In this document: positions 33,886-63,737 of the stretch, in pieces
Layout of the letters: the number at the start of each line of letters is the position of its first letter
Position numbering within the stretch: position 1 is the first letter of the stretch
Source of the DNA: Propionibacteriaceae bacterium
GTDB taxonomy: Bacteria; Actinomycetota; Actinomycetes; Propionibacteriales; Propionibacteriaceae
Direction: 5' to 3'
DNA length: 64,000 bases
NCBI GenBank assembly: GCA_025965155.1
Contig: JAOPXN010000052.1
Span: 1 to 64,000, forward strand
The notes under the pieces: generated by a model
Databases searched by the model: none
What the model was told of the DNA's origin: nothing
The model's input: only the letters and a program-made list of their open reading frames with translations
Translations under genes and position numbers: made by a program

Positions 33886-36144
33886 GTGGCACAGTCACAG
33901 TTTGATGATGCTAATGGCAGGTGTGTTCCGCTTGAGGGACTCGGTCTGATCCGGAGCAAGATGGCGCCGAGCCGTCTGCCGGGGGGATTCATCCCACGTC
34001 CAGCCCTTATTGAACGCCTCCGCGGCGGCGGCGGTTGTGTGCTGACGCTCCTGTCCGCGCCCGCCGGCTTCGGCAAGACAACCCTGCTGACCGAATGGGT
34101 AGCTACCCGCGGACAAGGTTCGACTGCATGGGTTTCCCTCGACAGGGGGGACACAGATCCAGTTCGGTTGTGGTCACATGTGATCGCCGCGCTCGCTGAA
34201 GCCGAGCCAGGTGTAGGCGCGGCGTCCTTAGCAGCCGTGCGGGCACGTCCCGACGACATCGAGGCGTATGCGCTACCTAAGTTGTTGGAGGAACTTCCCG
34301 TCGAAGGCCCGGACCTCGTCCTGGTCGTCGATGACTTTCACCTCGCGGAAAGCCCGATCACCAATGGCGCCATAGAGGCCTTCATGCGGTACCGTCCCGC
34401 TCGCATCCAACTTGTCATTGCGACCCGCTCGGACCCCGCCTTGGGGATAGCTCGACTAAGGGCCTACGGGAGCCTGCTGGAGATCCGGGCGGAGCAGCTG
34501 CGCTTCGATGACCGAGAGATCAGGGATTTCCTCAAGGCGCTGGGCCTTAGTCCGGTCTCCGCCGGCGAGGAGGTCCGGCTGGCGAAACGCACCGGTGGCT
34601 GGCCGGCGCCGCTCCGGCTGTTCGCGCTCCTCATGGCGGACCACGATGCGGGGGAGTTTCTGGGCTCGTCCGCTCTCGCGAACCGCCCGGTGATCGACTA
34701 CCTCACCAGCGATGTGCTGGAGCTGCTCGAACCCCACGTGCATGAGTTCTTGCTGCAGGCGTCAATCCTGACCCGGATGAACGCGGCGTTGTGTGAGGCC
34801 GTCGTTGCGGTGCCCGGCTCCGCTACGATCCTCGCCGACCTCGAACGCTCCAACATGTTCACCTCGGTCGACGACACCGGTGAGTGGTACCGGCTGCACG
34901 ACCTGTTCGCCGAAGGCCTCCGACTGGAGCTGGGCCGGACGCGCGCTGAGCTGGTGCCTTTGCTACATCAACGCGCGGCACGCTGGCTCGAGGAGACAGG
35001 TGATCTGGAGCTAGCCACGGCTCATGCGATCAGCGCTCGAGACCTCGGGGCCGCCAGCCGACTGGTGGCGCGGCAGGCGTGGCAGTTCACAGCGGAGGGA
35101 CGGTCGGCAACGGTTCGAGGCTGGTTGGCCGATCTTTCCTGGCCGGCGGCGCAGGTGGACTCTGAACTCGCTTTCGTTCGAGCAACGCTGGCGGTGATGA
35201 CCCACGATATCGATGACGCAGAACACTGGCTCGACGTTGCCGGCACTGGGCCCGAGGACCTAATCGGCGCGATGGGCCTCCCGCTTGGCTACCGCACCGA
35301 CTTTCTCCGTGCCATCGTGAGCGTCAACGACGTCTCGGCCGCCCGTGCGGCTGCGTGCCGGGCGGTCCAGTCAGCCCCCGCTCCGCAGTGGGAAGGCGTC
35401 GCCCTGGCCGGGCTCGGGCAGGCCGAGTACCTGCTTGGGCAGCATGATGCGGCCGAACGCACGCTACGCAAAGCTGTCGGACTGATCTCCGGTGACACAC
35501 CCCACCTGCTGGCGTTTGCTATCGGAACCCTTGCGCTTGTCGAGTATGCCGGCGGAGCTGATGCTCATACCGCCCCGATGCTTGATGGAGCCCTCGAGAT
35601 GTTGCGGACTACGGGGTGGGAGCGATCGCCTCTCAGCGCGGTCGTGCACATGGCGTGCGGCGAACGTGCGCGAAGCGGTGGTGATGCGCGGGAAGCGGCA
35701 CGCTGGTTCGGAACGGCAATCGAGATGCTTGGCAGCGGTGCCCGCAGCGGATGGCTGGCTAGCGCATATCTGCTCCAGGCGCGTACCTGCCAGAAACTCG
35801 GCGACGCGCCAGATGAGACTAACTATCTCGACGCCGCCGACGCCATCTTGACGCGGCTGCCCAACGCGGGAGCTTTGACAGCCGTTGCCGAGCGTCTTCG
35901 ACGGGACTCGTCCGTCGTTGCCCGACCTGTGACCCGGTTCGGCGAACAGCTATCTGATCGAGAGGTCGCTGTCCTGCAGTTGGCCGCCGATGGACTGACG
36001 CAGCGACAGATAGCCGACCAGCTCTTCATCTCCTACAACACCGTCAAGACGCACTTTAAGACCACCTATCGCAAGTTGGGAGCGACGTCCCGGCTCGAGG
36101 CGCTGGCGCAGCTCTATGATTGTCAGATCATCCGGCAACCGTGA
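33886..36144 (+). CDS. LuxR family regulator, MalT-like LAL type (P-loop ATPase + TPR + HTH)
   Basis: SAPAGFGKTTLLTEW, LVLVVDDFHL, C-term LSDREVAVLQLAADGLTQRQIADQLFISYNTVKTHFKTTYRKLGATSR; ATG at 33961 possible. Confidence 0.9.
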   Translation: MAQSQFDDANGRCVPLEGLGLIRSKMAPSRLPGGFIPRPALIERLRGGGGCVLTLLSAPAGFGKTTLLTEWVATRGQGSTAWVSLDRGDTDPVRLWSHVIAALAEAEPGVGAASLAAVRARPDDIEAYALPKLLEELPVEGPDLVLVVDDFHLAESPITNGAIEAFMRYRPARIQLVIATRSDPALGIARLRAYGSLLEIRAEQLRFDDREIRDFLKALGLSPVSAGEEVRLAKRTGGWPAPLRLFALLMADHDAGEFLGSSALANRPVIDYLTSDVLELLEPHVHEFLLQASILTRMNAALCEAVVAVPGSATILADLERSNMFTSVDDTGEWYRLHDLFAEGLRLELGRTRAELVPLLHQRAARWLEETGDLELATAHAISARDLGAASRLVARQAWQFTAEGRSATVRGWLADLSWPAAQVDSELAFVRATLAVMTHDIDDAEHWLDVAGTGPEDLIGAMGLPLGYRTDFLRAIVSVNDVSAARAAACRAVQSAPAPQWEGVALAGLGQAEYLLGQHDAAERTLRKAVGLISGDTPHLLAFAIGTLALVEYAGGADAHTAPMLDGALEMLRTTGWERSPLSAVVHMACGERARSGGDAREAARWFGTAIEMLGSGARSGWLASAYLLQARTCQKLGDAPDETNYLDAADAILTRLPNAGALTAVAERLRRDSSVVARPVTRFGEQLSDREVAVLQLAADGLTQRQIADQLFISYNTVKTHFKTTYRKLGATSRLEALAQLYDCQIIRQP

Positions 36145-36156
36145 CCTCGCTGAGGA

Positions 36157-36168
36157 TCACCCGGGTGG
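36157..36168. promoter_or_regulatory. TCACCCGGGTGG palindrome (zero-spacer class)
   Basis: 1 mismatch to TCACCC|GGGTGA; between the LAL gene and the small ORF at 36219. Confidence 0.35.
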
Positions 36169-36218
36169 TATTCCCAGCGTGTGGTGGCATCCGGCCAGCC
36201 ACCCGTCACGCTGAACAC

Positions 36219-36440
36219 GTGCCTGATATCTGCTGCACGATCATCCTCTCCGAGGAACTCGGCGAGCGCTTCGATGGGGTCTTTGCCGGTCTTGCGCTCA
36301 CGCATGACGCAGGAACGACCGAACTCAACGGACGGGTTACCGATCAGTCCGCACTCAACGGTGTGCTCAAACAGCTGATGGATCTCGGTCTGGACATCAT
36401 CTCAATCTCCACTCACCCGGGTGAATCCCAACGAGGGTGA
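36219..36440 (+). CDS. small hypothetical protein of the YEI(R/V)x(I/L)xG ~60-aa repeat family
   Basis: Aligns by eye to 58217-58441: ...TTELNGRVTDQSALNGVLKQLMDLGLDIISIS; GTG start inferred. Confidence 0.5.
   Translation: MPDICCTIILSEELGERFDGVFAGLALTHDAGTTELNGRVTDQSALNGVLKQLMDLGLDIISISTHPGESQRG
36413..36424. promoter_or_regulatory. TCACCCGGGTGA perfect palindrome (zero-spacer class)
   Basis: 12-bp perfect palindrome ~80 bp before the DUF6325 gene start. Confidence 0.45.
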
Positions 36441-36503
36441 GTACGGACGCCGCGGCGCTGCGAAATGCTGCAATCAGATCCTACCGATGGCGAAAGGGCA
36501 GCT

Positions 36504-36995
36504 ATGAGTACCGCCGGTGAAAGCGCCGCTGTGAATGACTTGGAAGAGACAGGTCCCATCGACTACCTGATCGTCGAGTTTCCGGGCAATCGGATGACGG
36601 GCGAGGGGTTTCCCATGCTAATTGACCTGGTGGACTCAGGCATCATCCGGATTCTCGATCTGGTGTTTGTCAGGCGCGATCTCGACGGGTCGGTGGCGGC
36701 CCTGGACATAGCCGACCTCGACAACGACGGGGACCTGGACCTGACCGTCTTCGAGGGCACCTCCTCCGGGCTGGTGGGACCAGACGACATCGACGAGATG
36801 GGCTCTGTCATCGAGCCCGGCAGCTCAGCCGGTCTCCTGGTCTACGAGAACGTGTGGGCTGCACCCTTCGCCGCCGCGCTCCGACGAGGCGGCGCACAGC
36901 TGGTTTCTAGCGGTCGAATCCCGACACAGGCGATCCTTGCCTCGCTGGACGCCATGGAAGCCGCCGACACCACCGTTGGAGCGGACTCGAAGTAA
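36504..36995 (+). CDS. DUF6325-like family protein (cassette copy 1)
   Basis: GPIDYLIVEFPGNRMTGEGFPMLIDLVDSGIIRILDLVFVRRDLDGSV...AAPFAAALRRGGAQLVSSGRIP; near-identical architecture to 62932-63393. Confidence 0.82.
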   Translation: MSTAGESAAVNDLEETGPIDYLIVEFPGNRMTGEGFPMLIDLVDSGIIRILDLVFVRRDLDGSVAALDIADLDNDGDLDLTVFEGTSSGLVGPDDIDEMGSVIEPGSSAGLLVYENVWAAPFAAALRRGGAQLVSSGRIPTQAILASLDAMEAADTTVGADSK

Positions 36996-37021: not shown

Positions 37022-37330
37022 ATGCCAGGTCTTCTGCTAGGGATAGCACGCGCTGCCGTTGTCGCCGGACCCGCCACCGCCGTTTCCCGCCGCGTGCAAC
37101 GCCGCCAGCAGGGACGGTGGGCGGCGGCTCAAAAGCAGGAAGCGGCGGACGCACGAGCCCCACCGGAACCCGCCGTGCCTGCACCACATAGTCCAACGGC
37201 GCCGACTGATGCCGGCAGCAGCACTGACGACAAACCGGCTCAGCTTAAGCAGCTAGGGACCCTGAGAGACGCGGGCGTCCTAAATGACGCCGAGTTCGAG
37301 AACGAGAAGAGGAAGATCCTCGGCGGGTGA
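37022..37330 (+). CDS. SHOCT domain protein (cassette copy 1)
   Basis: C-term AQLKQLGTLRDAGVLNDAEFENEKRKILG. Confidence 0.85.
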   Translation: MPGLLLGIARAAVVAGPATAVSRRVQRRQQGRWAAAQKQEAADARAPPEPAVPAPHSPTAPTDAGSSTDDKPAQLKQLGTLRDAGVLNDAEFENEKRKILGG

Positions 37331-48868: not shown

Positions 48869-51136
48869 ATGACAACGGCGGGCAGCCTTGACCGCCGTCC
48901 AGTGTCGCCGCCCTTGGATGCATTCCTAGAGGCGAAGCTTCAGGCACCAAGGGTGCGGCCGGGATGGGTGCGCCGCCTTGGACTGGTCCGAGCACTGGAT
49001 CGAGCAGCCAACTGTCCGCTGACTCTGGTCGCCGCCCCAGCGGGATATGGCAAGACCACCCTCGTGGCGCAGTGGATTCACCAGATCCGTGATCGCGGAG
49101 TTGCCTGGGTGGCTCTCGATGCGGCCGACAATGATCCGGTGCGATTGTGGACCCACGTCGCGACGGCTCTCGCCCGGGCGGGCTGCCGAATCGACGACGA
49201 CGTTGCCGGTCTGGCAGCTTCCCACCGAACGCAGATCCTGACCAGCGTGCTACCCAAGATCATCAACTCCTTTGGGCGGCTCCCCCGCCCGATCGTGATC
49301 GTGTTGGATGACTTCCATCTCATCCGAGCGGGCCTCTGCCGCGAGCAGATCGAGTTCTTGATCGAGCACGTGCCGCAATCCGTCCGGATGGTGATCATCA
49401 CCCGGGCCGACCCGGCCCTGCGCATTGGCCGATTGCGTGTCTCCGGCCAACTAGCCGAGATCCGAGCTGATCGCCTGTCATTTGACGCTGCCGAAGCGTC
49501 GTCCCTGCTAGCGGTCGAAGGCGTTCGCCTATCCGACACGTCCGTTCAAGAACTGGTCGGCCGAACGGAAGGCTGGCCCGCGGCGCTCTATCTGGCGACC
49601 TTGTCGCTGGCCGGTCGGGAAGACCCCGACGCTTTTGTCCACCGGTTCAGCGGGGACAACCGCTTCATCGGCGAGTATCTCACTGAAGAGGTGCTGGGGC
49701 GGCACCCCGCCGCGGTCCGGGAGTTCATCATCAGCTCGGCACTTTTCGAGCGGATGTGCGCGCCGCTGTGCGACTACGTCCTGGAACGTTCTGACTCCCG
49801 GATGATCCTGCAAGATCTAGAGCGCTCGAATCTGTTCCTCTTGCCCCTAGATGCCGAGCGACAGTGGTTCCGATTCCATCACCTGTTCGCCGCAGTCGCG
49901 CGGAGCGAGCTCGAAGTCGGTGACGCACAACGGGTGCGGCGTTTGCACGATCGAGCAGCAGACTGGTTCGCCGAGCATGGCTTCGCCGACGAGGCGATCC
50001 GGCACGCAATCGCGGCAGGGTCTTCGACCCGTGCCTCGCTCCTGGTACAGGCAAACTGGGTTCGTTACGTCGATGCCGGACGCGAAGCGACCGTGGATCA
50101 CTGGTTACAGGCCATCCAAGCCCTGCAGGCCGCCGAGGCGCAGGCCGATCCCTCGGCGGTGGTGACAGCCGCGTGGATGGCGGTGGTCACCGGCGACGAA
50201 CCGACGCTGAACCACCTGCTCCACGCGCTCACCCGCATCGGCGACTACGGACCCCTTCCCGACGGCACCACGTCCGTAGAGTCCGCAATTGCACTCATCC
50301 GGGCGATGTCCGGCTACGGCGGGCCAGTCGACATGCTCTGGTCCGCCCGGCGGGCGGTTGAGCTGGAGACAGACGGAAACTCGCCGTCGTTCGCCTTCGC
50401 GAACTTCGCGCTAGGTCATGCGCTGTACATCTCGGGCGATCTGGAGACGGCGACCAGCGTGCTGCCCAGGGCCGCCTACAACAGTGCGGCGACCGCGATC
50501 GTCAAGACGTTCGCCTTCTCCGTGATGGCCATGGCAGCCAGGGAACAAGGAGACGAGCCCCGCAGTGCGGCCTACACCGCTGCGGCGATGAAGGTGGTCG
50601 AAGACACCTCCATGCAGGCCATGTCCCAGGCGTCGCCGGCCTTCACCGTGTGGGGCGAAACTCAAGCCGCAATGGGCAACCTCACCGGTGCCATGGCCAC
50701 GCTGGAGCATGCTTTCATCCTTCGCGGCACCATCCCAGGCCTGAGCCCGTGGCCGACGATCCACCATGCCATCGCCATGGGCCGAGTAGCGACCGTGGCA
50801 GGTGACCTGCCGCGGGCGGAGCAACTGCTGGATGAGGCCGCACAGGTGATGTCTCGGTTCCCCGACGGGATGGAGGCTATGCGCGCTCGACTCGCGGCGG
50901 CCCGGGCCGCCCTGCGACATCGTCGCTCCCGAGAGCCTGGAGTCCAAGCGTTGACCGGTCGCGAACTCGACATCCTGGGCCTGCTCCAAGGTTCGATGAA
51001 CCTGAGCGAGATCGCATCCGAGCTACACCTGTCGCGCAACACCGTGAAGACGCACGCCCAGGCCGTCTACCGCAAGCTCGGCGCAAGTTCTCGGTCCCAA
51101 GCTGTGGGACTCGCGCGCCAGCGCGCACTGATCTGA
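48869..51136 (+). CDS. LuxR family regulator, MalT-like LAL type
   Basis: VAAPAGYGKTTLVAQW, IVIVLDDFHLI, C-term LTGRELDILGLLQGSMNLSEIASELHLSRNTVKTHAQAVYRKLGASSRSQAV. Confidence 0.9.
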   Translation: MTTAGSLDRRPVSPPLDAFLEAKLQAPRVRPGWVRRLGLVRALDRAANCPLTLVAAPAGYGKTTLVAQWIHQIRDRGVAWVALDAADNDPVRLWTHVATALARAGCRIDDDVAGLAASHRTQILTSVLPKIINSFGRLPRPIVIVLDDFHLIRAGLCREQIEFLIEHVPQSVRMVIITRADPALRIGRLRVSGQLAEIRADRLSFDAAEASSLLAVEGVRLSDTSVQELVGRTEGWPAALYLATLSLAGREDPDAFVHRFSGDNRFIGEYLTEEVLGRHPAAVREFIISSALFERMCAPLCDYVLERSDSRMILQDLERSNLFLLPLDAERQWFRFHHLFAAVARSELEVGDAQRVRRLHDRAADWFAEHGFADEAIRHAIAAGSSTRASLLVQANWVRYVDAGREATVDHWLQAIQALQAAEAQADPSAVVTAAWMAVVTGDEPTLNHLLHALTRIGDYGPLPDGTTSVESAIALIRAMSGYGGPVDMLWSARRAVELETDGNSPSFAFANFALGHALYISGDLETATSVLPRAAYNSAATAIVKTFAFSVMAMAAREQGDEPRSAAYTAAAMKVVEDTSMQAMSQASPAFTVWGETQAAMGNLTGAMATLEHAFILRGTIPGLSPWPTIHHAIAMGRVATVAGDLPRAEQLLDEAAQVMSRFPDGMEAMRARLAAARAALRHRRSREPGVQALTGRELDILGLLQGSMNLSEIASELHLSRNTVKTHAQAVYRKLGASSRSQAVGLARQRALI

Positions 51137-53782: not shown

Positions 53783-53799
53783 TCACCCGCTAAGGGTGA
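53783..53799. promoter_or_regulatory. inverted repeat TCACCC-GCTAA-GGGTGA (perfect arms)
   Basis: N5 class; ~130 bp upstream of the sulfatase gene. Confidence 0.55.
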
Positions 53800-53928
53800 T
53801 GCAGTTGCCTCGAAGGCGGTCAACGATCGGACCTACGCACGGTGATGACCGTGCCACCAGCCGCTTCGCCGCCCCGAACCGCAACTGGGTGGGTGGTGAC
53901 TGGCGCCGGTCCTTCGAGAGGAGCAGCA

Positions 53929-55443
53929 ATGCCGACCGACAAGCCGAACATCCTTCTGATCTTGGCCGACGACATCGGCTCGTTTGACGTAAGCGCATAT
54001 CACCGGGGAGTTATGGGTACTCGCACGCCAAACATTGATCGGATCGCGTCCGAGGGTGCTCTGATGACGGACGGCTATGCGCAGGCGAGCTGCACGGCGG
54101 GGCGCGCCGCATTCATCACCGGACAGATCCCGATACGGACTGGTCTGACAACCGTCGGACTGCCAGGCGCGGAACAGGGACTGCAGCCGGAGGACCCGAC
54201 CCTAGCGGACCTGCTGAAGCCCGAGGGCTACATGAGCGCCCAGCATGGCAAGAACCACCTCGGCGACCGGAACAAGTTCCTTCCCACCGTGCACGGCTTC
54301 GACGAATTCTACGGAAACCTGTACCACCTGAACGCCGAAGAAGAGCCTGAGCAGCCCGACTACCCGAGGGACCTGCCGCTCTTTCAGCAGTTCTTTGTCC
54401 CGCGAGGAGTCCTCGAGTGCAAGGCAACCGATGTTGACGACCCGACAGAGGATCCACGTTTCGGGCGGGTCGGCAAACAGTCAATCATCGACACGGGTCC
54501 GTTGACGCGTAAGCGCATGGAGACTGTCGAGAACGACCTGCTAGAGCGGTCCCTCGACTTCATCGACCGCGCCCACGAGGCGGAGAGGCCGTTCCTGCTC
54601 TGGCATAACACGACTCGCATGCACGTCTGGACCCGCCTTTCAGAACGGTGGAGAGACAAGACGGGACTCGGCCTATACGCCGATGGGATGCAGGAACTCG
54701 ACTGGGTCGTCGGCGAACTGCTGGACAAGCTGGACGACCTGGGTATCGCCGACAACACTGTTGTGGTCTTCGCGACTGACAACGGTGCGGAGGAGTTCAC
54801 CTGGCCCGACGGCGGAACGACCCAGTTCCGAGGGGAGAAGGGCCTGGGTTGGGAGGGTGGCTTCCGCGCCCCCCTACTGGTCCGCTGGCCCGACAGAATC
54901 CCTGTCGGCCAAGTGCTGAACGGCATCATGTCCCTAGAGGACATCGTCCCGACCATGATGGCCGCCGCCGGGGTTTCGGACATCACCGAGCAGCTGCTGG
55001 AAGGCTACGGATCCGGTGACAGGGAGTTCCGCGTCCACCTCGACGGATACAACCAGCTGCCCTACCTGACCGGGGAAACCGAGGAGTCGCCGCGGCACGA
55101 GTTCTTCTATTATGGCGAGCACGACCTGTTCGCCATCCGGTACAACAACTGGAAGGTTCACTTCTTGATCAAGGATGACTGGTTCGCTGGTGCGATGCTT
55201 CGGCCAACGGTGCCGCGTCCCGTGAATCTGCGGGTGGATCCACTTGAGAAGCACATGGACGCGCCGTCCTACCCGGTGTACGCCGGCGAGAAGCTCTGGA
55301 CGGTGCTGCCCGCTGCCGCGATCGTGCTGAAGCACGCGAACACGTTCGTGGACTTCCCGCCTAGGCAGGCACCGCCTGACTTCAACCCACAGGCCATGCT
55401 GCGGACAGTGATGAACGCGGCGGCACAGCGTCAGGGAAACTAG
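53929..55443 (+). CDS. arylsulfatase (type I, formylglycine-dependent)
   Basis: KPNILLILADDIGSFDVSAY, SCTAGRAAFITGQIPIRTG (C-x-A-x-R sulfatase motif), TVVVFATDNGAEE. Confidence 0.92.
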   Translation: MPTDKPNILLILADDIGSFDVSAYHRGVMGTRTPNIDRIASEGALMTDGYAQASCTAGRAAFITGQIPIRTGLTTVGLPGAEQGLQPEDPTLADLLKPEGYMSAQHGKNHLGDRNKFLPTVHGFDEFYGNLYHLNAEEEPEQPDYPRDLPLFQQFFVPRGVLECKATDVDDPTEDPRFGRVGKQSIIDTGPLTRKRMETVENDLLERSLDFIDRAHEAERPFLLWHNTTRMHVWTRLSERWRDKTGLGLYADGMQELDWVVGELLDKLDDLGIADNTVVVFATDNGAEEFTWPDGGTTQFRGEKGLGWEGGFRAPLLVRWPDRIPVGQVLNGIMSLEDIVPTMMAAAGVSDITEQLLEGYGSGDREFRVHLDGYNQLPYLTGETEESPRHEFFYYGEHDLFAIRYNNWKVHFLIKDDWFAGAMLRPTVPRPVNLRVDPLEKHMDAPSYPVYAGEKLWTVLPAAAIVLKHANTFVDFPPRQAPPDFNPQAMLRTVMNAAAQRQGN

Positions 55444-56462
55444 TGGGCTTGGCAGAGGTAGGCATGGATGCACAGTCCGCGCCGGACGCACCCGCGGCCG
55501 CGGCCGCGACTGAATCTCCTGCCTACTCTGACCGTCGAACTGCACCAGGACCGGGAATGGTGTGGATTCCCGGTGGGACATTCCTGATGGGGTCGGACAA
55601 CCACTATCCGGAGGAGGCACCCGCACACCGGGTCACCGTTGCAGGCTTCTGGATGGACCGGCACACCGTGACGAACCAGGAGTTCGCCCTTTTCGTCAAG
55701 AAGACCGGATATGTCACTGTGGCCGAACGCGACCTGAATGCGGCCGACTATCCCGGCGCCAAGGCGGAGATGTTGGCCCCGGCCTCCACCGTTTTCCAGC
55801 AACCGCAGCGACCCGTCGCTCTCGACAATCCCTATGAGTGGTGGATCTATGTACGCGGAGCCGACTGGCTCCATCCGCGGGGTCCTGGGAGCTCGGTGAA
55901 ACGACAACCCCGTCATCCCGTCGTCCACGTTGCCTGGGAGGACATCGAGACCTACGCGGAGTGGGTGGGCAAGGACCTGCCCACCGAAGCTGAATGGGAG
56001 TTCGCAGCCCGGGGTGGGTTGGACGGTGCCACCTATGAGTGGGGCCAGGATCTCACACCCGACGGCCGCTGGATGGCCAACACCTGGCAGGGCCAGTTCC
56101 CCATGAAGAACACCGGCGAGGACGGACACCGAGGGACCGCGCCGGTCGGCTGCTACCCGCCCAATGGCTACGGTCTCGTCGACATGACCGGCAATGTATG
56201 GGAATGGACGACGGACTGGTACCAAGCACACACACAGAACGCGCACAGTTGCTGCGCATCAGAGAACCCTCGAGGTGGGCTCCGGGCAGCGAGCATCGAC
56301 CCGTCGATGCCGGACATCCCGATCCCACGCCGAGTCATGAAGGGCGGCTCACACCTCTGCTCACCGAACTACTGCCGGCGCTATCGGCCCGCAGCACGCA
56401 TGCCACAACCCGTCGACACCTCGACCTCTCATCTCGGCTTCCGCTGCATCAGCCGCGGCTGA
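55443..56462 (+). CDS. formylglycine-generating enzyme family protein (SUMF1/FGE-sulfatase domain)
   Basis: MVWIPGGTFLMGSDNHYPEEAPAHRVTVAGFWMDRHTVTNQEFALFVKKTGYVTVAE, GNVWEWTTDWY, RVMKGGSHLCSPNYCRRYRPAAR. Confidence 0.94.
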   Translation: MGLAEVGMDAQSAPDAPAAAAATESPAYSDRRTAPGPGMVWIPGGTFLMGSDNHYPEEAPAHRVTVAGFWMDRHTVTNQEFALFVKKTGYVTVAERDLNAADYPGAKAEMLAPASTVFQQPQRPVALDNPYEWWIYVRGADWLHPRGPGSSVKRQPRHPVVHVAWEDIETYAEWVGKDLPTEAEWEFAARGGLDGATYEWGQDLTPDGRWMANTWQGQFPMKNTGEDGHRGTAPVGCYPPNGYGLVDMTGNVWEWTTDWYQAHTQNAHSCCASENPRGGLRAASIDPSMPDIPIPRRVMKGGSHLCSPNYCRRYRPAARMPQPVDTSTSHLGFRCISRG

Positions 56463-56468
56463 CGGACA

Positions 56469-56502
56469 TCGTGCCTGGCACCACTCGAGGTCCCAGGCAC
56501 GA
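56469..56502. terminator. bidirectional hairpin between convergent genes
   Basis: TCGTGCCTGG-N14-CCAGGCACGA perfect 10-bp stem. Confidence 0.65.
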
Positions 56503-56518
56503 CGACCCTGGTCCGGCT

Positions 56519-56992
56519 CTAGCGGCGCCGGTCGCGGCGCCGGTTGCGGCGATTCATCCCGGCCAGGGACACTGGGCTCAGCGGGCGGCCAAGCGGATCG
56601 ATGAACAGTGTGGCCGGCCCGGACTCAGCCGGCACGGCACCCTCAAGCACCTCAATGGAGTAGGTGAGCTCGGTCCCCGACCGTACCGGATCGCGTAGTA
56701 CCACCACGGCGTCAGAGGGCATGTCCTCGCCTGCACCGACATAGGACAAGACCGCGTTCGGTGGGTCCTCGAAGAAGCTGTTCGGGCCATCGGTCCACTG
56801 TGCGACGAACTGCTCGGTGGTCATGTGCCCGACAACTCGCTCCGGACGATCGGAGAAGTACAACGTGGACGGCGACATGTCCCGCAGGGTCAGCGTCGTC
56901 TCATCGCTGGTCACGTTTCGCGCGGTCTGCACGAACATCTCCTCCAGCATGATCGTGTCGTCGTCGGTGGTCGTGGTCGGTGACTGGGTCAT
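56519..56992 (-). CDS. hypothetical protein
   Basis: MTQSPTTTTDDDTIMLEEMFVQTARNVTSDETTLTLRDMSPSTLYFSDRPERVVGHMTTEQFVAQW...; own palindromic promoter site. Confidence 0.65.
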   Translation of the reverse strand: MTQSPTTTTDDDTIMLEEMFVQTARNVTSDETTLTLRDMSPSTLYFSDRPERVVGHMTTEQFVAQWTDGPNSFFEDPPNAVLSYVGAGEDMPSDAVVVLRDPVRSGTELTYSIEVLEGAVPAESGPATLFIDPLGRPLSPVSLAGMNRRNRRRDRRR

Positions 56993-57087
56993 CCTCCGCC
57001 TCTTTTCTTTGTAGAGATGCTCTGTGATGGGCCGGAATGGGCCACCAGCACCACTACTCACGGTCCCATCACACGCGTCCAGGTGAC

Positions 57088-57104
57088 TCACCCCTGACGG
57101 GTGA
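57088..57104. promoter_or_regulatory. inverted repeat TCACCC-CTGAC-GGGTGA (perfect arms)
   Basis: N5 class; ~95 bp upstream of the 56992 start. Confidence 0.55.
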
Positions 57105-57434
57105 ACTCGCGGTCGGTGGAAGTAGATGATCAATGATCAACGAAGTCGTCGGTGCGCTTATGCCGGGATCCAGGGTGCCCGCCAGCCACCATGTCCGGCG
57201 GGTACCGGGAGGGCAGCACGTTCGTGATGACGAAGGGTCGGCGCCGGTGATCTCCACCCCCGCGGGCCGCCACCGCGCGCAGCTGGACCGCCGGCTGCAT
57301 CCGCCGGTTGGGGTACTCCAGGTAGCGCAGCGGTCGAGCCACTGCTCGAGCCAGCCATCACAGGGGACCCTTTCTGGAGGTTGCGTTGACGACGTTGAAG
57401 CCGCCTCGGTTCTTGAGGCTCCAGCGAGGGCACC

Positions 57435-57457
57435 GCTTCACCCTAACCGGGTGAAGC
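57435..57457. promoter_or_regulatory. inverted repeat GCTTCACCC-TAACC-GGGTGAAGC (9-bp perfect arms)
   Basis: N5 class; overlaps the 3' end of the truncated G6PDH-like ORF. Confidence 0.6.
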
Positions 57458-58106
57458 GGGGCGACCCTGCTCGTACACTCGAGACCTCAACGGCCGCATG
57501 ATCAGTCAAGCCTCCTCGACCGTAGAGGATTTCCTCCAGGCCAATCTGTCCCCGATAGTGGTCGATCCGGTAAAGCTGAGACTCGTCGACATACTGGTTC
57601 AGCTCCTGGGCGAGGGCCCGGGCGAAGCTTCGGTCAGTTCCGAACGGCTTCTCCACTACGATGCGCCCCGTCTGTGTCAGTCCGGCGCCGACCAGGCCCT
57701 TGACGACGGTGCTGAGGAGCAGAGGTGGGATCTCGAGGTAGAACACCGGACTGTCAGCGCCCATGATGGCTTCTGCGACTCGATCGTATGTCCCTGCATC
57801 GCCGAGGTCGCCCTGCACGTAGCACAGTCGCCCCGCGAAACGGGCAAAGACCATGGGGTCGAGTGGCTCCCCGCTGGATTCGATCGACTCGCGGGCACCT
57901 CGCACGAGCTGGTCCACGGTCCACTTATCCACTGCCACTCCGACGATCTGGCATTGCAGCAAACTTCGCTGCTCAAGCCAGTAGAGCGAGCGGAACGTTA
58001 TCACCTTCGCCGGGTCGGCGGTAATCCCGAACGCCACAAAGACGTCGGCGGGCCTCTGACCTGGCCCCGTCCACGCGCCTACCGGCTCCCCGACCGTCGC
58101 GGCCAT
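57438..58106 (-). pseudogene. truncated glucose-6-phosphate dehydrogenase-like protein (N-terminal part only)
   Basis: ADVFVAFGITADPAKVITFRSLYWLEQRSLL...VFYLEIPPLLLSTVVKGL...RIVVEKPFGTDRSFARALAQELNQYVDESQLYRIDHYRGQIGLEEILY; 222 aa, lacks the C-terminal domain. Confidence 0.7.
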
Positions 58107-58170
58107 CGTTTCCTCCCTTGTAAAAAACGAGATACGGCTGTGTGAAAAAAACGAGATACCGCGTGCCAGG

Positions 58171-58187
58171 TCATCCACTTTGGGTGA
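58171..58187. promoter_or_regulatory. inverted repeat TCATCC-ACTTT-GGGTGA
   Basis: N5 class, 1 mismatch; 65 bp upstream of the truncated G6PDH-like start. Confidence 0.5.
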
Positions 58188-58216
58188 CTCCACTGCGGCG
58201 GGATGGATAGTGAGTA

Positions 58217-58441
58217 TCAGTCAGCATCCTTCTGGTCGACCGGATCACGCCGCACGTCCAGCAGGATGAGGCCATCTCGGCGCAACGCGTTGAGCAGACC
58301 GTACAGCGCGGCCAGATCGGGCAGATCGGCCCGAAGAGTGGTCTGCAGTGACCTTGCTACCAGGGTGACGCCCTCGATCTCAGCAAGCACATCGGGCCGC
58401 ACCTCACCCTCGATCCGGATCTCGTACGTAGCCCTCAACAT
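58217..58441 (-). CDS. small hypothetical protein, ~60-aa YEIRIEG-family domain
   Basis: MLRATYEIRIEGEVRPDVLAEIEGVTLVARSLQTTLRADLPDLAALYGLLNALRRDGLILLDVRRD. Confidence 0.7.
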   Translation of the reverse strand: MLRATYEIRIEGEVRPDVLAEIEGVTLVARSLQTTLRADLPDLAALYGLLNALRRDGLILLDVRRDPVDQKDAD

Positions 58442-58581
58442 TCCGATCTCGTTTCATTCCGAACATCTCTGTCTCCCAAGTCGGGTGGTGGTTCAGCGGA
58501 GCGATCCATGGGCGTTTTGCGGCTCCGAGCGTGGTTATTTGTGATCCTCATGTAGCACCTTGCGCTCACCGCGCACATCGG

Positions 58582-58604
58582 GCGTCACCCGTACCGGGTG
58601 ACGC
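58582..58604. promoter_or_regulatory. inverted repeat GCGTCACCC-GTACC-GGGTGACGC (9-bp perfect arms)
   Basis: N5 class; ~140 bp upstream of the 58441 start. Confidence 0.6.
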
Positions 58605-58662
58605 TGGTCAGATGGATCGGATCCAGGCTGCCGTTTCGTGACTCACCGCTCGCCACGACGCC

Positions 58663-58679
58663 TCACCCGAGCTGGGTGA
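58663..58679. promoter_or_regulatory. inverted repeat TCACCC-GAGCT-GGGTGA (perfect arms)
   Basis: N5 class; second copy in the same intergenic region. Confidence 0.55.
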
Positions 58680-58862
58680 AGACGCAACCAGCCACACGCC
58701 AACCCCGCCACCGTGACTGCCTTCCGATCTCAGCCGGACGGAGAGAAGCGACGGTCGCCATCCGTCTGGCCGCCGGCGGAGCATGTTGAGGAACGCAGCC
58801 ATGATCGGGTCCAAAGACGTGCCTGAGCACCTGGAAGAACGGAATTCAGCATCCCCGGCCCT

Positions 58863-59396
58863 CTACGGCCCACCAAGTGACGCCTCCGCCTGCCGCGCGA
58901 CCGGGTTGAGCCGGATGACCCATTCGAGAGTAAGACCGCAGTCGGTGCAGGAAGCCAGGAAGTGGTGTAGGTCGCCGGGGCTCGTCCGGATTCGAACGAC
59001 GCTCTGCTCCGGCTGGACCCGGATCGACCAGCGCAGGTAGCGCAGCAGTGCACTTCCTAGCCGCCCTTCGACGAGAACCTCGTAAGACCAAACCACCGGG
59101 ATGTACCGGTCGGGGAATCGGCTGAGTTCCTGCCCTGCCGAGATCGTCGTGGTCAGCCGTTCACAGCGACGTCCGTGAGCCGGGCGTCGTCGGGATGGTG
59201 ACTCACGGATCTCCCAGAGTTCCAGCCCGATCGCCTGCAGTTTCTCCAGCAGCACGTCGAGCTCGGCCGCGTCGGTCACCTCGCGGTAGAGAATGGTGGT
59301 CGCTGGGCTGCGGTGGATGGTCATCCCGCGGAACTGTTCCCGGATGGCTGATGGAATGTCCCCGTGGAGTCGGACCTCATAGGTCGGCGAGTTCAT
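58863..59396 (-). CDS. hypothetical protein with two tandem YEVxLxG-type domains
   Basis: YEVRLHGDIPSAIREQFRG...LDVLLEKLQAIGLELWEIRE and YEVLVEGRLGSALLRYLRW...LHHFLASCTDCGLTLEWVIRL align by eye. Confidence 0.65.
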   Translation of the reverse strand: MNSPTYEVRLHGDIPSAIREQFRGMTIHRSPATTILYREVTDAAELDVLLEKLQAIGLELWEIRESPSRRRPAHGRRCERLTTTISAGQELSRFPDRYIPVVWSYEVLVEGRLGSALLRYLRWSIRVQPEQSVVRIRTSPGDLHHFLASCTDCGLTLEWVIRLNPVARQAEASLGGP

Positions 59397-59452
59397 AGCG
59401 TGCGACAGGTCCACCATGTCCTCGACTCTGCTCACTTTTGTTGGCCTGGAGT

Positions 59453-59469
59453 TCACCCGGGGCAGGTGA
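59453..59469. promoter_or_regulatory. inverted repeat TCACCC-GGGGC-AGGTGA
   Basis: N5 class, 1 mismatch; ~57 bp upstream of the 59396 start. Confidence 0.5.
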
Positions 59470-59540
59470 TCCGCCTGCATGCCATGGCCGAGTGGGTTGT
59501 GCTGTCCCACGACGACCACTCTTAGTCCGCTGAAGCGCAC

Positions 59541-60122
59541 CTACTCCGAGCGCCGGTCACCCAGTGCAGCGCCGAACAACACGCGCGCGACCACTCCGAG
59601 GAAGACCAGATTGGCCAGCATCTGCAGCATGGTGATCACTCGAGCAGGCTCGCTGACGGGGGTAATGTCGCCAAACCCCACGGTGGTGAACATGGTGACC
59701 GACAGATATAGCGCGTCGAGGCGCGACATCGGCTCCGAATAGCTGCCCTGGGACCTGAGATCGATCAGAAAATGAGCAACCGCGAAGATCAAAAGCAGAA
59801 GCGGAGCCGAGGTCCCGAGCGACTCCACCGCCCGCAAGCCTGGGTGCTGTGCGCGAGTGGTCGCTCGGATCTCGAAAGCGAGTAGCGCGGGGACCACGAG
59901 CAACCCAACCACAAATGTGACCACGGTCATCGGTCCGCTCAGTCTTTCCAGCGGGAGGATGAAGTAGATCGCCACCAGCGCCCCCGCCATGAGCAGGGTA
60001 CGCAGCAAGGCGAGGGCCACCAACCGCCGCCGCTGTACGGGTGACAACCGCGCGACGCGAGAGTGGGTCAAGGCGCACGCCCGGCTAGCACAGCGCAAGC
60101 CCGCGACCGCGACGAACAGCAT
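59541..60122 (-). CDS. two-pore-domain-style ion (K+) channel protein
   Basis: Selectivity filter region SVTMFTTVGFGDITPVSEPARVITMLQMLANLVFLGVV; N-terminal start uncertain. Confidence 0.85.
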   Translation of the reverse strand: MLFVAVAGLRCASRACALTHSRVARLSPVQRRRLVALALLRTLLMAGALVAIYFILPLERLSGPMTVVTFVVGLLVVPALLAFEIRATTRAQHPGLRAVESLGTSAPLLLLIFAVAHFLIDLRSQGSYSEPMSRLDALYLSVTMFTTVGFGDITPVSEPARVITMLQMLANLVFLGVVARVLFGAALGDRRSE

Positions 60123-62724
60123 CGGCTCGGCGGTTCACCGCAAGTTTGAGGAAAAGGCTCTTGATGTGCGTTTTCACTGTGTTTGCCGACACGAACAGAT
60201 CGATGGCGATCTCCTCAGTGGTGCGCAACTGGGCCAGCCGTTCCAAGACCTGGAGCTCACGCTCGGTCAGCGGTTCGAGTAGCGTATCCGGCTGCGGTGA
60301 CGGCTCGAAGTTTCGGCGCCTGGGGGTCTTGATGATGAGTGAGGCTATAAAGCTGCGATGGCAACGCGACAGGTCAGGCTCCTGGTCGACAAAAGCCAGC
60401 ACCCACGGCGTCACCGCGAATAGTGTCAGCCGGAGCTCCTCACGACTCGCTGCTCGCAGCGCACGGTCGACCAGGGCTCGGGCCCGCCGAGCATCCCCGG
60501 CCTCCCCCGCCAGCTGAGCTTCCAGAATCCAGGCCTGGACCGCTGTCGGCAGCGGCGCCTCGGCCACCTTGCCCTCCACGGAGGTCAGGAGCGCCCGCGC
60601 CCCGCGCTTGTCGCCGATGGCTCGACGAGCCGCCGCCGCGAGCACCCGACCCTCGACCATGGTGTGCCTCGGCTCGGGCGTCAAGGTCGCCAATACCTGC
60701 TGTGGGTCACCTGCGGCCAGGTGTGCTTCGGCCATCGCTACGCTAATTCGATCGGCAAGCCAGCCGGGCCGAGCCACAGGAGTGGTCCCTCCGGTGACGG
60801 CGAGCACCCGCAGTGCAACCTCGGGCTCGCCGACGGCGGTGGCGAGGCGGGCCTCAGCAAGGCGTCGTGCTGCCGCCAGCCATGGTTCACGGACACCTTC
60901 GCCGAGCCGGATCGCGTGATGTAGCCGCTGACCGGCCTGTTCCAGCTCTCCCCGTTCCAGATGGATCCATGCCGCGGCGAGCTGGGCGTAGCCGACGCCG
61001 ACTTCCACACCGTCCGCCGGACGTTTCACCAAAACCTCGGCCGCGTGGCGCGCCGCCGCGGCCAGGTCTCCGCGCAAGGCCTCGAGCAAACCCAGCAGCC
61101 CGGCACACTGAGCGGCGGCGACGTGTTCGGCGTCCGTTCCGACCGTCACATAAGCGGTCGGCTCAAGAACGGCGACCGCCCGATCCAGGTGGCCGGCTGA
61201 CAAGAGGAAGGCACCTTCATACGCATTCAGGAGCGCCGAGAGCTCCGGTGCGGCACGCTGCTCGCGTGGGCCAAGTTCCGCGACCTTCTGTCGGCACTCC
61301 GCTACGGCGCGCAGGCCAGCCTCATGGTCACAACGCTGCCGCGAGATCGCCATCTCGATCACAGCCTGGCTCAAGCGGTGGGCGAGCTCCGGCTCCCCCA
61401 TCCTGGCTATGCCCGCGCGTCCGCGGGCCAACGCAACATCGGCCGCCGGCACATCGCCCCGAGCCACCGCCGCAGCGGCCAGAATCAGCGGCTCAGCGGT
61501 GCCCGCGTCGCTTCTCTCCACCGAACGGGCGGTAGCCCCGTCGGCCGCGCCGAGCACGATGCTCGGCACCGCCATCGACCGCACAAGCGCCGTCGCTATC
61601 CAGTTCCAATCTCCCGCCTCGGCGGCGAGCTGTAACCCTGCCGCCGTGTCCCCGCTGTCGACGTACCAGGCGGCGGCAGCTCGGCGTGCCTCACGCGCTA
61701 GTGCGGGCCAGTCCTGCTCCAAACGCCGTAGTGCGGTACGCCGAAGCAGCGGATGACACCGAAATGAGCCATCCGGTCGAATATCGACGAAGCCGTCTCG
61801 GCTCTCCAGGAGACCAGGCGACAGCCGGGGGTCCGCACCCATGATCGCGCAGGCAACCCCAGCGGAGATTTCAGCTGCCACGCTGGTGCGCAGGATGAGC
61901 TCCCGGCCTGCGGCCGGAAACTGCGTCAACACTTCTCGTTCCACCACATCGTCGAGCGCGAGGTCCACCTGGTCCATAACGTCGGGCGGTGACGACGTGT
62001 CTAGGGCTTCGGCCGCGATACCGACACCGCGTGCCCACCCGTACGTTCGCCCATACACCGACGACACCGTGTGCGGTTCCGGTGTCACCCCGGCTAGGGT
62101 AAGCATCTGGCCGATCTCCTGCTCGTTCATGGAGAGGCTGTCCAGGCCGATGTGGGAGTACTCGCCCGCCAGCCGCAGGCCGTGCACGTCGAGTGCCGGC
62201 GAGCTTCTACAGATCACCACCAGCCGCACAGCGCGGGCACTGCCAGCCAATATCACTGCAATTTGCCGTCCCAGCGAACGGCAGGCTCCAGTCGGGTAGT
62301 CGTCGAGCACCACAGTCCACGTGCCACCGCCAGCACTCAGCGCTCCGGCGAAACTTGTCAACCAGTCGGTCCATCGTGCTTTCACATTGTGCGGCGGTGG
62401 CACCTGCGGTAACGGGCCGGCCCCGAGATGGAGCAAGCCTGTCCGCAGCCCGCACCAGAAGAGTCGGACATCTTCGCTGTACGTGCCGGCGTTGAGCCAA
62501 AGGACCTTGGATGCTAAAAGTGATCTGGCGGCCCAGTCGGCGACCCCCAAAGTCTTGCCGGCACCGGATGGGGACTCGACCACCGTAAGCAGGCCCTCGC
62601 TCGCGGCGTTCAGTCGCTCACCGAGCCTGCGCCTGGCGATAATCAGGGGGCCAAGCTTTGGCAGCCCTAGATACGCCGGACCCTCTGGGCCCACGTCGAT
62701 CGAGTACGGCAGCGTGTTGGTCAT
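60085..62724 (-). CDS. LuxR family regulator, MalT-like LAL type
   Basis: VESPSGAGKTLGVADW, WTVVLDDYP, C-term LTERELQVLERLAQLRTTEEIAIDLFVSANTVKTHIKSLFLKLAVNRRADAV; ATG at 62724. Confidence 0.9.
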   Translation of the reverse strand: MTNTLPYSIDVGPEGPAYLGLPKLGPLIIARRRLGERLNAASEGLLTVVESPSGAGKTLGVADWAARSLLASKVLWLNAGTYSEDVRLFWCGLRTGLLHLGAGPLPQVPPPHNVKARWTDWLTSFAGALSAGGGTWTVVLDDYPTGACRSLGRQIAVILAGSARAVRLVVICRSSPALDVHGLRLAGEYSHIGLDSLSMNEQEIGQMLTLAGVTPEPHTVSSVYGRTYGWARGVGIAAEALDTSSPPDVMDQVDLALDDVVEREVLTQFPAAGRELILRTSVAAEISAGVACAIMGADPRLSPGLLESRDGFVDIRPDGSFRCHPLLRRTALRRLEQDWPALAREARRAAAAWYVDSGDTAAGLQLAAEAGDWNWIATALVRSMAVPSIVLGAADGATARSVERSDAGTAEPLILAAAAVARGDVPAADVALARGRAGIARMGEPELAHRLSQAVIEMAISRQRCDHEAGLRAVAECRQKVAELGPREQRAAPELSALLNAYEGAFLLSAGHLDRAVAVLEPTAYVTVGTDAEHVAAAQCAGLLGLLEALRGDLAAAARHAAEVLVKRPADGVEVGVGYAQLAAAWIHLERGELEQAGQRLHHAIRLGEGVREPWLAAARRLAEARLATAVGEPEVALRVLAVTGGTTPVARPGWLADRISVAMAEAHLAAGDPQQVLATLTPEPRHTMVEGRVLAAAARRAIGDKRGARALLTSVEGKVAEAPLPTAVQAWILEAQLAGEAGDARRARALVDRALRAASREELRLTLFAVTPWVLAFVDQEPDLSRCHRSFIASLIIKTPRRRNFEPSPQPDTLLEPLTERELQVLERLAQLRTTEEIAIDLFVSANTVKTHIKSLFLKLAVNRRADAVRRGRGLALC

Positions 62725-62804
62725 GGGCCCCCCAGATGTCATCTACTTGTCCCAACGTCACCATTACGAGCGACAAACGAACGGCCCCGCCTCATCCAAC
62801 GGGT

Positions 62805-62824
62805 GATCTCACCCGGGTGAGATC
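62805..62824. promoter_or_regulatory. GATCTCACCC|GGGTGAGATC perfect 20-bp palindrome (zero-spacer class)
   Basis: In the divergent promoter between the LAL regulator (62724) and the DUF6325 gene (62932). Confidence 0.6.
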
Positions 62825-62879
62825 TGCTTCGCCGAAGGTGACTGAACCAAGTCGACCGGCGGCCGACTTTGCGGTTCGC

Positions 62880-62896
62880 TCACCCGGAGCGGGTGA
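62880..62896. promoter_or_regulatory. inverted repeat TCACCC-GGAGC-GGGTGA (perfect arms)
   Basis: N5 class; 36 bp upstream of the DUF6325 start. Confidence 0.6.
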
Positions 62897-62931
62897 GACG
62901 CCAGGAACGGCCGAGGCCGCAGAGTGGGGCC

Positions 62932-63393
62932 ATGACGAGCGCAAATGACTTGGAGGACATCGGTCCCATCGACTACCTGGTGGTCGAGTTTCCGGGCAGC
63001 AAGATGACCGGCGAGGGGCTTCCGCTGCTCGTAGAACTGGTCGAATCAGGAACTATCCGGATCCTAGATTTGGTCTTCGTCACCCGTGAGCTCGACGGCT
63101 CGGTGAACGCGGTCGAGATCTCCGACTTCGATAAGGACGGGGAGCTCGATCTGGCAATTTTCGAAGGCGCCTCCTCCGGTCTACTGGGCGATGACGACCT
63201 CGCCGAGGCAACATCGGTCATCGAGCCCGGGAATTCGGCCGGAGTTCTGGTCTACGAGAACGCTTGGGCCGCACCCTTCGCTGCAGCGCTCCGCCGAGAC
63301 GGTGCGCAACTCGTGGCAAGTGGCCGTATCCCGGTCCAGGCAATCCTCGCCGCCCTCGACGAAGCCGAAGCCGAAGCCGCCGCGGCGGTCTGA
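62932..63393 (+). CDS. DUF6325-like family protein (cassette copy 2)
   Basis: GPIDYLVVEFPGSKMTGEGLPLLVELVESGTIRILDLVFVTRELDGSV...AAPFAAALRRDGAQLVASGRIP. Confidence 0.82.
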   Translation: MTSANDLEDIGPIDYLVVEFPGSKMTGEGLPLLVELVESGTIRILDLVFVTRELDGSVNAVEISDFDKDGELDLAIFEGASSGLLGDDDLAEATSVIEPGNSAGVLVYENAWAAPFAAALRRDGAQLVASGRIPVQAILAALDEAEAEAAAAV

Positions 63394-63431
63394 GGCGACC
63401 GTGCACTCCAACTACCGAGAGGTTTACTTTC

Positions 63432-63737
63432 ATGCCAGGTCTCATTCGGGGCGTAGCCCGCACCGCCGTCGTTGCGGGAACCGCCACCGCGGTGTCGGGC
63501 CGCGTCCGTCGTCGCCAGCAGGGGCGGTGGGCCAGCCAGGAGAACGAAGCAGCCGCCGAGGAAGCGGCCGCACCCGAGCCGGTTGCGGACGAGCCTGCTC
63601 CGGCTGCGGCTGAGGCGCCCTCGGGAGGTATGGACGACAAGTTCGCTCAGCTCCGCCAGCTCGGCGAACTCCACGACGCCGGAGTGCTGACCGACGCGGA
63701 GTTCCAAGGCCAAAAGGGCAAGATTCTCTACGCATGA
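63432..63737 (+). CDS. SHOCT domain protein (cassette copy 2)
   Basis: AQLRQLGELHDAGVLTDAEFQGQKGKIL; N-term MPGLIRGVARTAVVAGTATAVSGRVRRRQQGRWA matches copy 1. Confidence 0.85.
   Translation: MPGLIRGVARTAVVAGTATAVSGRVRRRQQGRWASQENEAAAEEAAAPEPVADEPAPAAAEAPSGGMDDKFAQLRQLGELHDAGVLTDAEFQGQKGKILYA

Follow-up and report, generated by a model that had tools for sequence, protein, structure and literature searches.

Three genes encoding MalT-like regulators of the LuxR type, hereafter LALa, LALb and LALc, lie in the 64-kb stretch of DNA analysed here (the window). LALa (33961–36144, plus strand) carries a GerE domain (Pfam, 1.7e-17) and aligns with E. coli MalT by blastp at 1e-54, and LALb (48869–51136, plus strand) is 67% identical to LALd, a regulator encoded outside the window. 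LALc (60085–62724, minus strand), the gene faced by the operator array described below, encodes an 879-aa protein that combines a MalT-like NTPase, with the Walker A sequence SPSGAGKT and a match to the MalT structure 8bob over residues 27–375 (3e-9), with a C-terminal LuxR-type helix-turn-helix (HTH; GerE, PF00196, 1e-14, residues 818–871) that also matches the GerE structure 1fse. Against the NCBIfam MalT model LALc scores 3.6e-32 and 111 bits, below the equivalog cutoff of 537, and on this profile it is classed as MalT-like rather than as MalT itself. LALd is strongly MalT-like (NCBIfam MalT, 5.9e-98; 8bob, 8e-46), LALc more weakly so, and LALd too falls below the equivalog cutoff. The HTH regions of LALd and LALc match E. 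coli MalT at 24–26 of 56 positions, and the recognition stretch NTVKTH or TTIKTH is common to LALa through LALd. Several LAL regulators of the genome have a similar recognition helix, and by sequence more than one of them is a candidate binder for each site layout. A scan of the genome contigs with LALc returned one distant, irrelevant match.

Upstream of LALc lies the perfect 20-bp palindrome GATCTCACCCGGGTGAGATC (62805–62824, unstranded), which reads GATC-TCACCC|GGGTGA-GATC and which a sequence-only reading of this DNA had placed at exactly these coordinates. It is the sole zero-spacer perfect palindrome with arms of at least 10 bp in the window; order-1 Markov simulations gave a mean of 0.1 such palindromes, so its length by itself is only mildly unusual. 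Its half-sites, box 1 (reverse) and box 2 (forward), are followed in the direction of the LAL gene by a third box, GGATGA (62792–62797, minus strand), 11 bp past box 2, and then by a -10-like hexamer, AATGGT (62760–62765, minus strand), 26 bp past the third box and aligned as NAATRG in most LALc upstream regions. The palindrome is real and functional-looking, yet it is no zero-spacer operator in its own right: it supplies the two upstream boxes, of three, in a directional array, TCACCC-GGGTGA-N11-GGRTGA, followed by a -10-like hexamer. The earlier division of sites into two spacing classes, zero-spacer (N0) and five-nucleotide spacer (N5), had not taken this three-box array into account: the N0 form belongs to it, and the two classes differ in more than the spacing of a dimer site.

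The bare N0 12-mer occurs seven times in the whole genome, and its reversed pattern does not occur. Four of the seven adjoin LAL genes, namely the site at 62805–62824, that at 36413 beyond LALa, one at contig position 74827 (24 bp after LALd) and one upstream of a further regulator gene, LALe (C81:78085). Other genomes of the genus contain between zero and five bare 12-mers each, mostly within coding genes; the 12-mer is therefore not special by itself, and we dropped it as a genus-wide signal. The intergenic, LAL-linked and GATC-flanked form with a third box is found in three exact copies in the genome, with none at one mismatch and four chance-like matches at two, which is far beyond chance. 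When the nine LAL-linked sites are aligned with the neighbouring gene to the right, they read TCACCC-GGGTGA-GATC-N7-GGRTGA, and a third box of the form RGRTGW is present at +11 in all nine, on the opposite side in none of the nine and in none of 44 background directions. With the spacer left free between 0 and 30, N11 accounts for 13 of 23 matches in 25 genomes and N10 for two (binomial 3e-14, an upper bound on the surprise since some of the 23 are related copies). The GATC arms were considered as an essential part of the element and rejected, being absent from the arrays of a distant actinobacterium, G460, described below.

Conservation was followed both from the DNA and from the protein. Searched at the DNA level only, with at most one mismatch to the 18-mer ATCTCACCCGGGTGAGAT, 397 genomes from the order yielded six sites, five of them at LALd or LALc genes: two in the source genome and one each in G005, G354 and G218, where the site sits exactly between LALd-like and LALc-like genes. 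The match in G194 is the sole one away from such genes. LALc orthologues gathered by protein alone, through alignment of the C-terminal half, came from seven genomes (the source genome, G005, G354, G218, G330, G248 and G195), and the exact 12-mer stands upstream of LALc in six of these; the seventh, G195, has the two-mismatch form GATC-TAACCCGGCTGA, and a fragmentary LALc in an eighth genome, G016, also has the 12-mer. The site is still found upstream of LALc in G248, where the neighbour is not LALd, and the remainder of the LALc intergenic regions is poorly conserved. In the source genome LALd and LALc are distant from each other and each retains one N0 copy, which would fit the break-up of an ancestral LALd-N0-LALc unit. 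Autoregulation of the 60085–62724 gene, which had been suggested from the location of the palindrome, appears well supported by this phylogenetic footprinting. The LALe array was not seen at the orthologue in G006, which is 59% identical, and the promoters of LALa, LALb and LALd themselves have no three-box array. The LALc orthologues of Nocardioides-like genomes (our inferred label for family f3; L105, L106, L108, L112 and L113) have called lengths of about 410–470 aa, and their alignment begins at residue ~482, without the NTPase half; most keep the same operator.

The two DUF6325-SHOCT loci of the window differ in their upstream sites. The first comprises DUF6325 copy 1 (36504–36995, plus strand; PF19850, 1.1e-14) and a SHOCT protein gene (37022–37330, plus strand; PF09851, 1.5e-7), preceded by the N0 pair TCACCCGGGTGA (36413–36424, plus strand), a third box GGGTGA at a spacing of N10 (36435–36440, plus strand) and, 23 bp further, the -10-like hexamer AATGCT (36464–36469, plus strand). 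G460 has an array of this N10 type too, again with a 23-bp step, and the 36413 site is a genuine N10 variant facing DUF6325 copy 1. The pair overlaps the tail of a small ORF (36165–36440), and a coding explanation was set aside because that tail is not conserved among homologues. Homologues of this ORF, which lies behind LALa, adjoin LAL genes at L100 and L101, and a weaker homologue lies behind an array in G460. The core was said to repeat in the window, and it does: TCACCCGGGTGA is exact at 36413 and 62809, and a one-mismatch form, TCACCCGGGTGG, occurs at 36157–36168 (plus strand), 13 bp past the LALa stop codon. The latter has no third box and is thus probably not a full site, leaving its earlier listing as an N0 site unsupported.

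DUF6325 copy 2 (62932–63393, plus strand; PF19850, 1.7e-12) and its SHOCT protein gene (63432–63737, plus strand; PF09851, 1.2e-7) have an N5 site upstream, TCACCC-GGAGC-GGGTGA (62880–62896, plus strand), which lies 56 bp from position 62824, as previously noted. A -10-like hexamer of the form.A...T, CAGAGT (62920–62925, plus strand), follows 23 bp downstream and fits the N5 spacing peak of 22–23 bp described below. Both DUF6325-SHOCT cassettes had been taken to carry the zero-spacer form, which is borne out at 36413 for copy 1 and fails for copy 2: the third box and -10-like hexamer of the 62792–62824 array face LALc and point away from DUF6325, and the DUF6325 orthologue in G005 has an N5 site only. 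On these two grounds we ruled out the N0 element as a promoter element of copy 2. A literature search on DUF6325 found no paper.

TCACCC-N5-GGGTGA is present in six exact copies in the window and 13 in the whole genome, against none for the reversed control, and the sites are clustered, nine of the 13 falling in 16 kb of the contig that carries the window. In a set of 49 directed, non-redundant N5 sites, 30 have the.A...T hexamer beginning 22 or 23 bp downstream of GGGTGA, against an average of 1.4 sites for each of the other positions. In this genus, LALc promoters have AATGGT or AATAGT 26 bp past the third box, not 23, and no clear counterpart of this hexamer was found in the Nocardioides-like LALc promoters. 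In other species, too, N5 sites precede the orthologous sulfatase genes and DUF6325-SHOCT operons. The outer flanks of N5 sites seemed palindromic on inspection, but a hairpin reading was rejected, as complementarity reached just 0.28–0.47 per column over 43 sites.

The genes near these sites include candidates for an N5 regulon: in the window at 53783–63400 and in L001 (contig 60001–78355) we noted sulfatases, DUF6325/SHOCT, PLD and DUF7144 genes, with a formylglycine-generating enzyme gene nearby. The sulfatase orthologues in G001 and G006 (46–77% identical) have N5 sites upstream as well. Neither Pfam nor NCBIfam gives a match for the 225-aa protein encoded at 58863–59540, whose gene recurs next to LALc and is preceded by an N5 site in G354, G218 and G330. 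The gene at 57438–58106 encodes a protein with the NAD-binding half only of glucose-6-phosphate dehydrogenase; it has a one-mismatch N5 site upstream, and its 3' end is overlapped by an exact one.

A class-wide search of 395 genomes found exact arrays in the source genome (three, all LAL-linked) and in G460 (six within 27 kb) only. In the latter, ten arrays, nine aligned as N11 and one as N10, lie within 30 kb around three LAL genes, and every one of the ten has the.A...T hexamer at exactly 23 bp past its third box. At 7 bp beyond the third box of these arrays comes a fourth, which reads TCACCC or nearly so; this fourth box is present too in the Nocardioides-like LALc promoters of four genomes. 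No N5 site at one mismatch or fewer was found in that stretch of G460. As the majority of the G460 arrays face non-LAL genes, the array is not LAL-promoter-specific in general; from sequence comparison it appears to be a general operator layout, used at LAL promoters here and at many genes in G460.

A literature search for TCACCC/GGGTGA found no paper on a bacterial regulator, and the closest described system is one whose box has T/A where the box here has C/G. In Actinoplanes sp. SE50/110 the MalT-type activator ACSP50_3915 has been assigned to TCATCC-N5-GGATGA, whose 3' end lies 34.4 +/- 1.0 nt upstream of the transcription start site (TSS), and its deletion lowers, and its overexpression raises, expression of most genes of its island (PMC7567727). 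The N5 class of the window resembles this operator in its TCAYCC/GGRTGA box and inverted N5 layout, and may do so in promoter distance, with a LAL/MalT-type regulator likewise inside the regulated island among many co-regulated genes of unclear function. The distances compare as about 34 nt to the TSS, overlapping -35, in Actinoplanes and, measured to the -10-like hexamer and not to a TSS, 22–23 bp in those 30 of 49 N5 sites and 26 bp in LALc promoters. Neither a zero-spacer pair nor a +11 third box appears in the available part of the Actinoplanes account (PMC7567727), and the N0 element, with its zero spacer and third box at N11, lies outside that type of site. The N5 class is a further case of a known kind of site and the N0-N11 array a novel variant of it.

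E. coli MalT, an oligomer that binds cooperatively to several boxes, with four sites at pulAp (PMC10427625), offers a second comparison. Its arrays at malPp and pulAp are alike in having a GGA(T/G)GA core and several boxes per promoter for an oligomeric STAND activator (PMC10427625). The malPp arrangement is TCATCC-N7-TCCTCC-N17-GGATGA, whereas here a flush inverted pair is joined by a direct box at N11; the N7 step alone is common to both, between boxes 3 and 4 here, where it is inverted. Boxes 2 and 3, which have the same orientation, begin 17 bp from each other, against 13 in malPp, and so do not form a direct repeat of the E. coli type. The link to MalT, previously offered as only suggestive, is strengthened by GGATGA, the MalT core, as the third box in two of the genome's three N11 arrays and by the Actinoplanes operator (PMC7567727). 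Ordinary sites of LuxR/NarL-type dimers share the perfect dyad of about 20 bp and the LuxR-type HTH, but two spacings and a directional third box do not fit a fixed dimer.

We consider it likely, on sequence grounds, that the three-box operator TCACCC-GGGTGA-N11-GGRTGA is bound by a MalT-type activator (LAL, STAND/LuxR) that raises expression of the 60085–62724 gene; the array's sequence, conservation, direction, spacing and LAL linkage are observed, and LAL binding, activation over repression and autoregulation are what we infer from them. GGRTGA is the MalT-type recognition word, and such an activator would bind the three boxes upstream of LALc and drive or boost that gene, the actor being LALc itself or its usual neighbour LALd. 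With the promoter-proximal third box about 26 bp upstream of the -10-like hexamer (22–23 bp in N5 promoters and the G460 island), the regulator would stand beside the -35 region, in a position to recruit RNA polymerase. At N5 sites it would meet the same box as a simpler inverted pair at target genes (sulfatases, DUF6325-SHOCT, PLD, DUF7144). Most likely, then, LAL activators use one MalT-type box in two layouts, N5 at targets and N0-N11 at LAL promoters here. The array's layout is unlike the sites described for the regulator family, and suggests self-control through a rearrangement of the same DNA word.

The same array, bound by a LAL, could instead repress, with N0 arrays silencing LAL genes while N5 sites activate targets. 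This we judge unlikely. It has a precedent in Streptomyces, where the LAL regulator SCO6993 has a negative role and likewise recognises palindromes in the promoter of its own gene, though of different, non-consensus sequence (PMC9628970), and the 3-bp difference in -10 spacing between LALc and N5 promoters would also suit it. The exact 23-bp spacing of the G460 arrays upstream of many ordinary genes is rather what an activator box would show, and the spacing would agree with that of the Actinoplanes MalT activator (PMC7567727).

A dimeric regulator from outside the LAL family, such as a TetR- or GntR-type repressor, could occupy the palindrome with the LAL link incidental, a reading that we rate as somewhat less probable again. 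Dimer operators are typically dyads like this perfect one of 20 bp with its GATC arms; the core adjoins the LAL gene, and G248 is evidence that other neighbours can change. Such a dimer leaves unexplained why all nine sites have, at a constant +11, a third box in the same orientation, and also the fourth box in G460 and four Nocardioides-like genomes, and G460 lacks the GATC arms; no other regulator gene was seen to recur with the sites, while LALs recur in at least three families, and the box is identical to the known MalT-type word.

A role for the N0 element in terminating transcription after LALd-type genes, or as an RNA hairpin there, seems to us very improbable, even though it lies 4–25 bp past LALd-type stop codons in several genomes and extends to a near-perfect 34-bp palindrome in G005. 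The window copy is flanked by the starts of two divergent genes, a place with no use for a terminator, the outer stems are not kept in G016 and G218, unlike what an intrinsic terminator would require, and the core is invariant in sequence and not just paired, with the third box and -10-like spacing unaccounted for. Chance, or a by-product of coding sequence, can practically be discounted: bare 12-mers of the genus do lie mostly within coding genes, but the LAL-linked copies are intergenic and three-boxed with conserved flanks, and the survey upstream of LALc orthologues and the class-wide array search contradict it.

Returning to a MalT-type activator acting on the array, one can tentatively picture a modular code in which actinobacterial regulators of this type would read one box either as N5 pairs or as N0-N11(-N7) arrays, and several LAL paralogues of one island would split targets or set a hierarchy (LALd and LALc acting on LALc via the array, and on effectors via N5), with islands switching layout between lineages, as G460 may illustrate; we think this possible rather than probable. 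LAL regulators are common in actinobacteria and few have known operators. A conserved directional array with fixed promoter spacing offers a testable operator for a whole set of them, tied to the MalT mechanism, makes a sequence-based reading of regulons such as the sulfatases and unfamiliar island genes possible, and is a natural setting in which to see how well varied box layouts are tolerated by an oligomeric STAND activator.

Two further gene arrangements were noted. A 454-aa protein with no Pfam match (L001:14939–16303), here behind the LALd N0 array, shares an operon with DUF6325-SHOCT in G012 and G006 (55–56% identical). In family f4 (L091–L094 and L096) a LAL gene of about 980 aa is convergent with a DUF7144 gene, which has an N5 site some 80–100 bp upstream that is nearly identical across several species.
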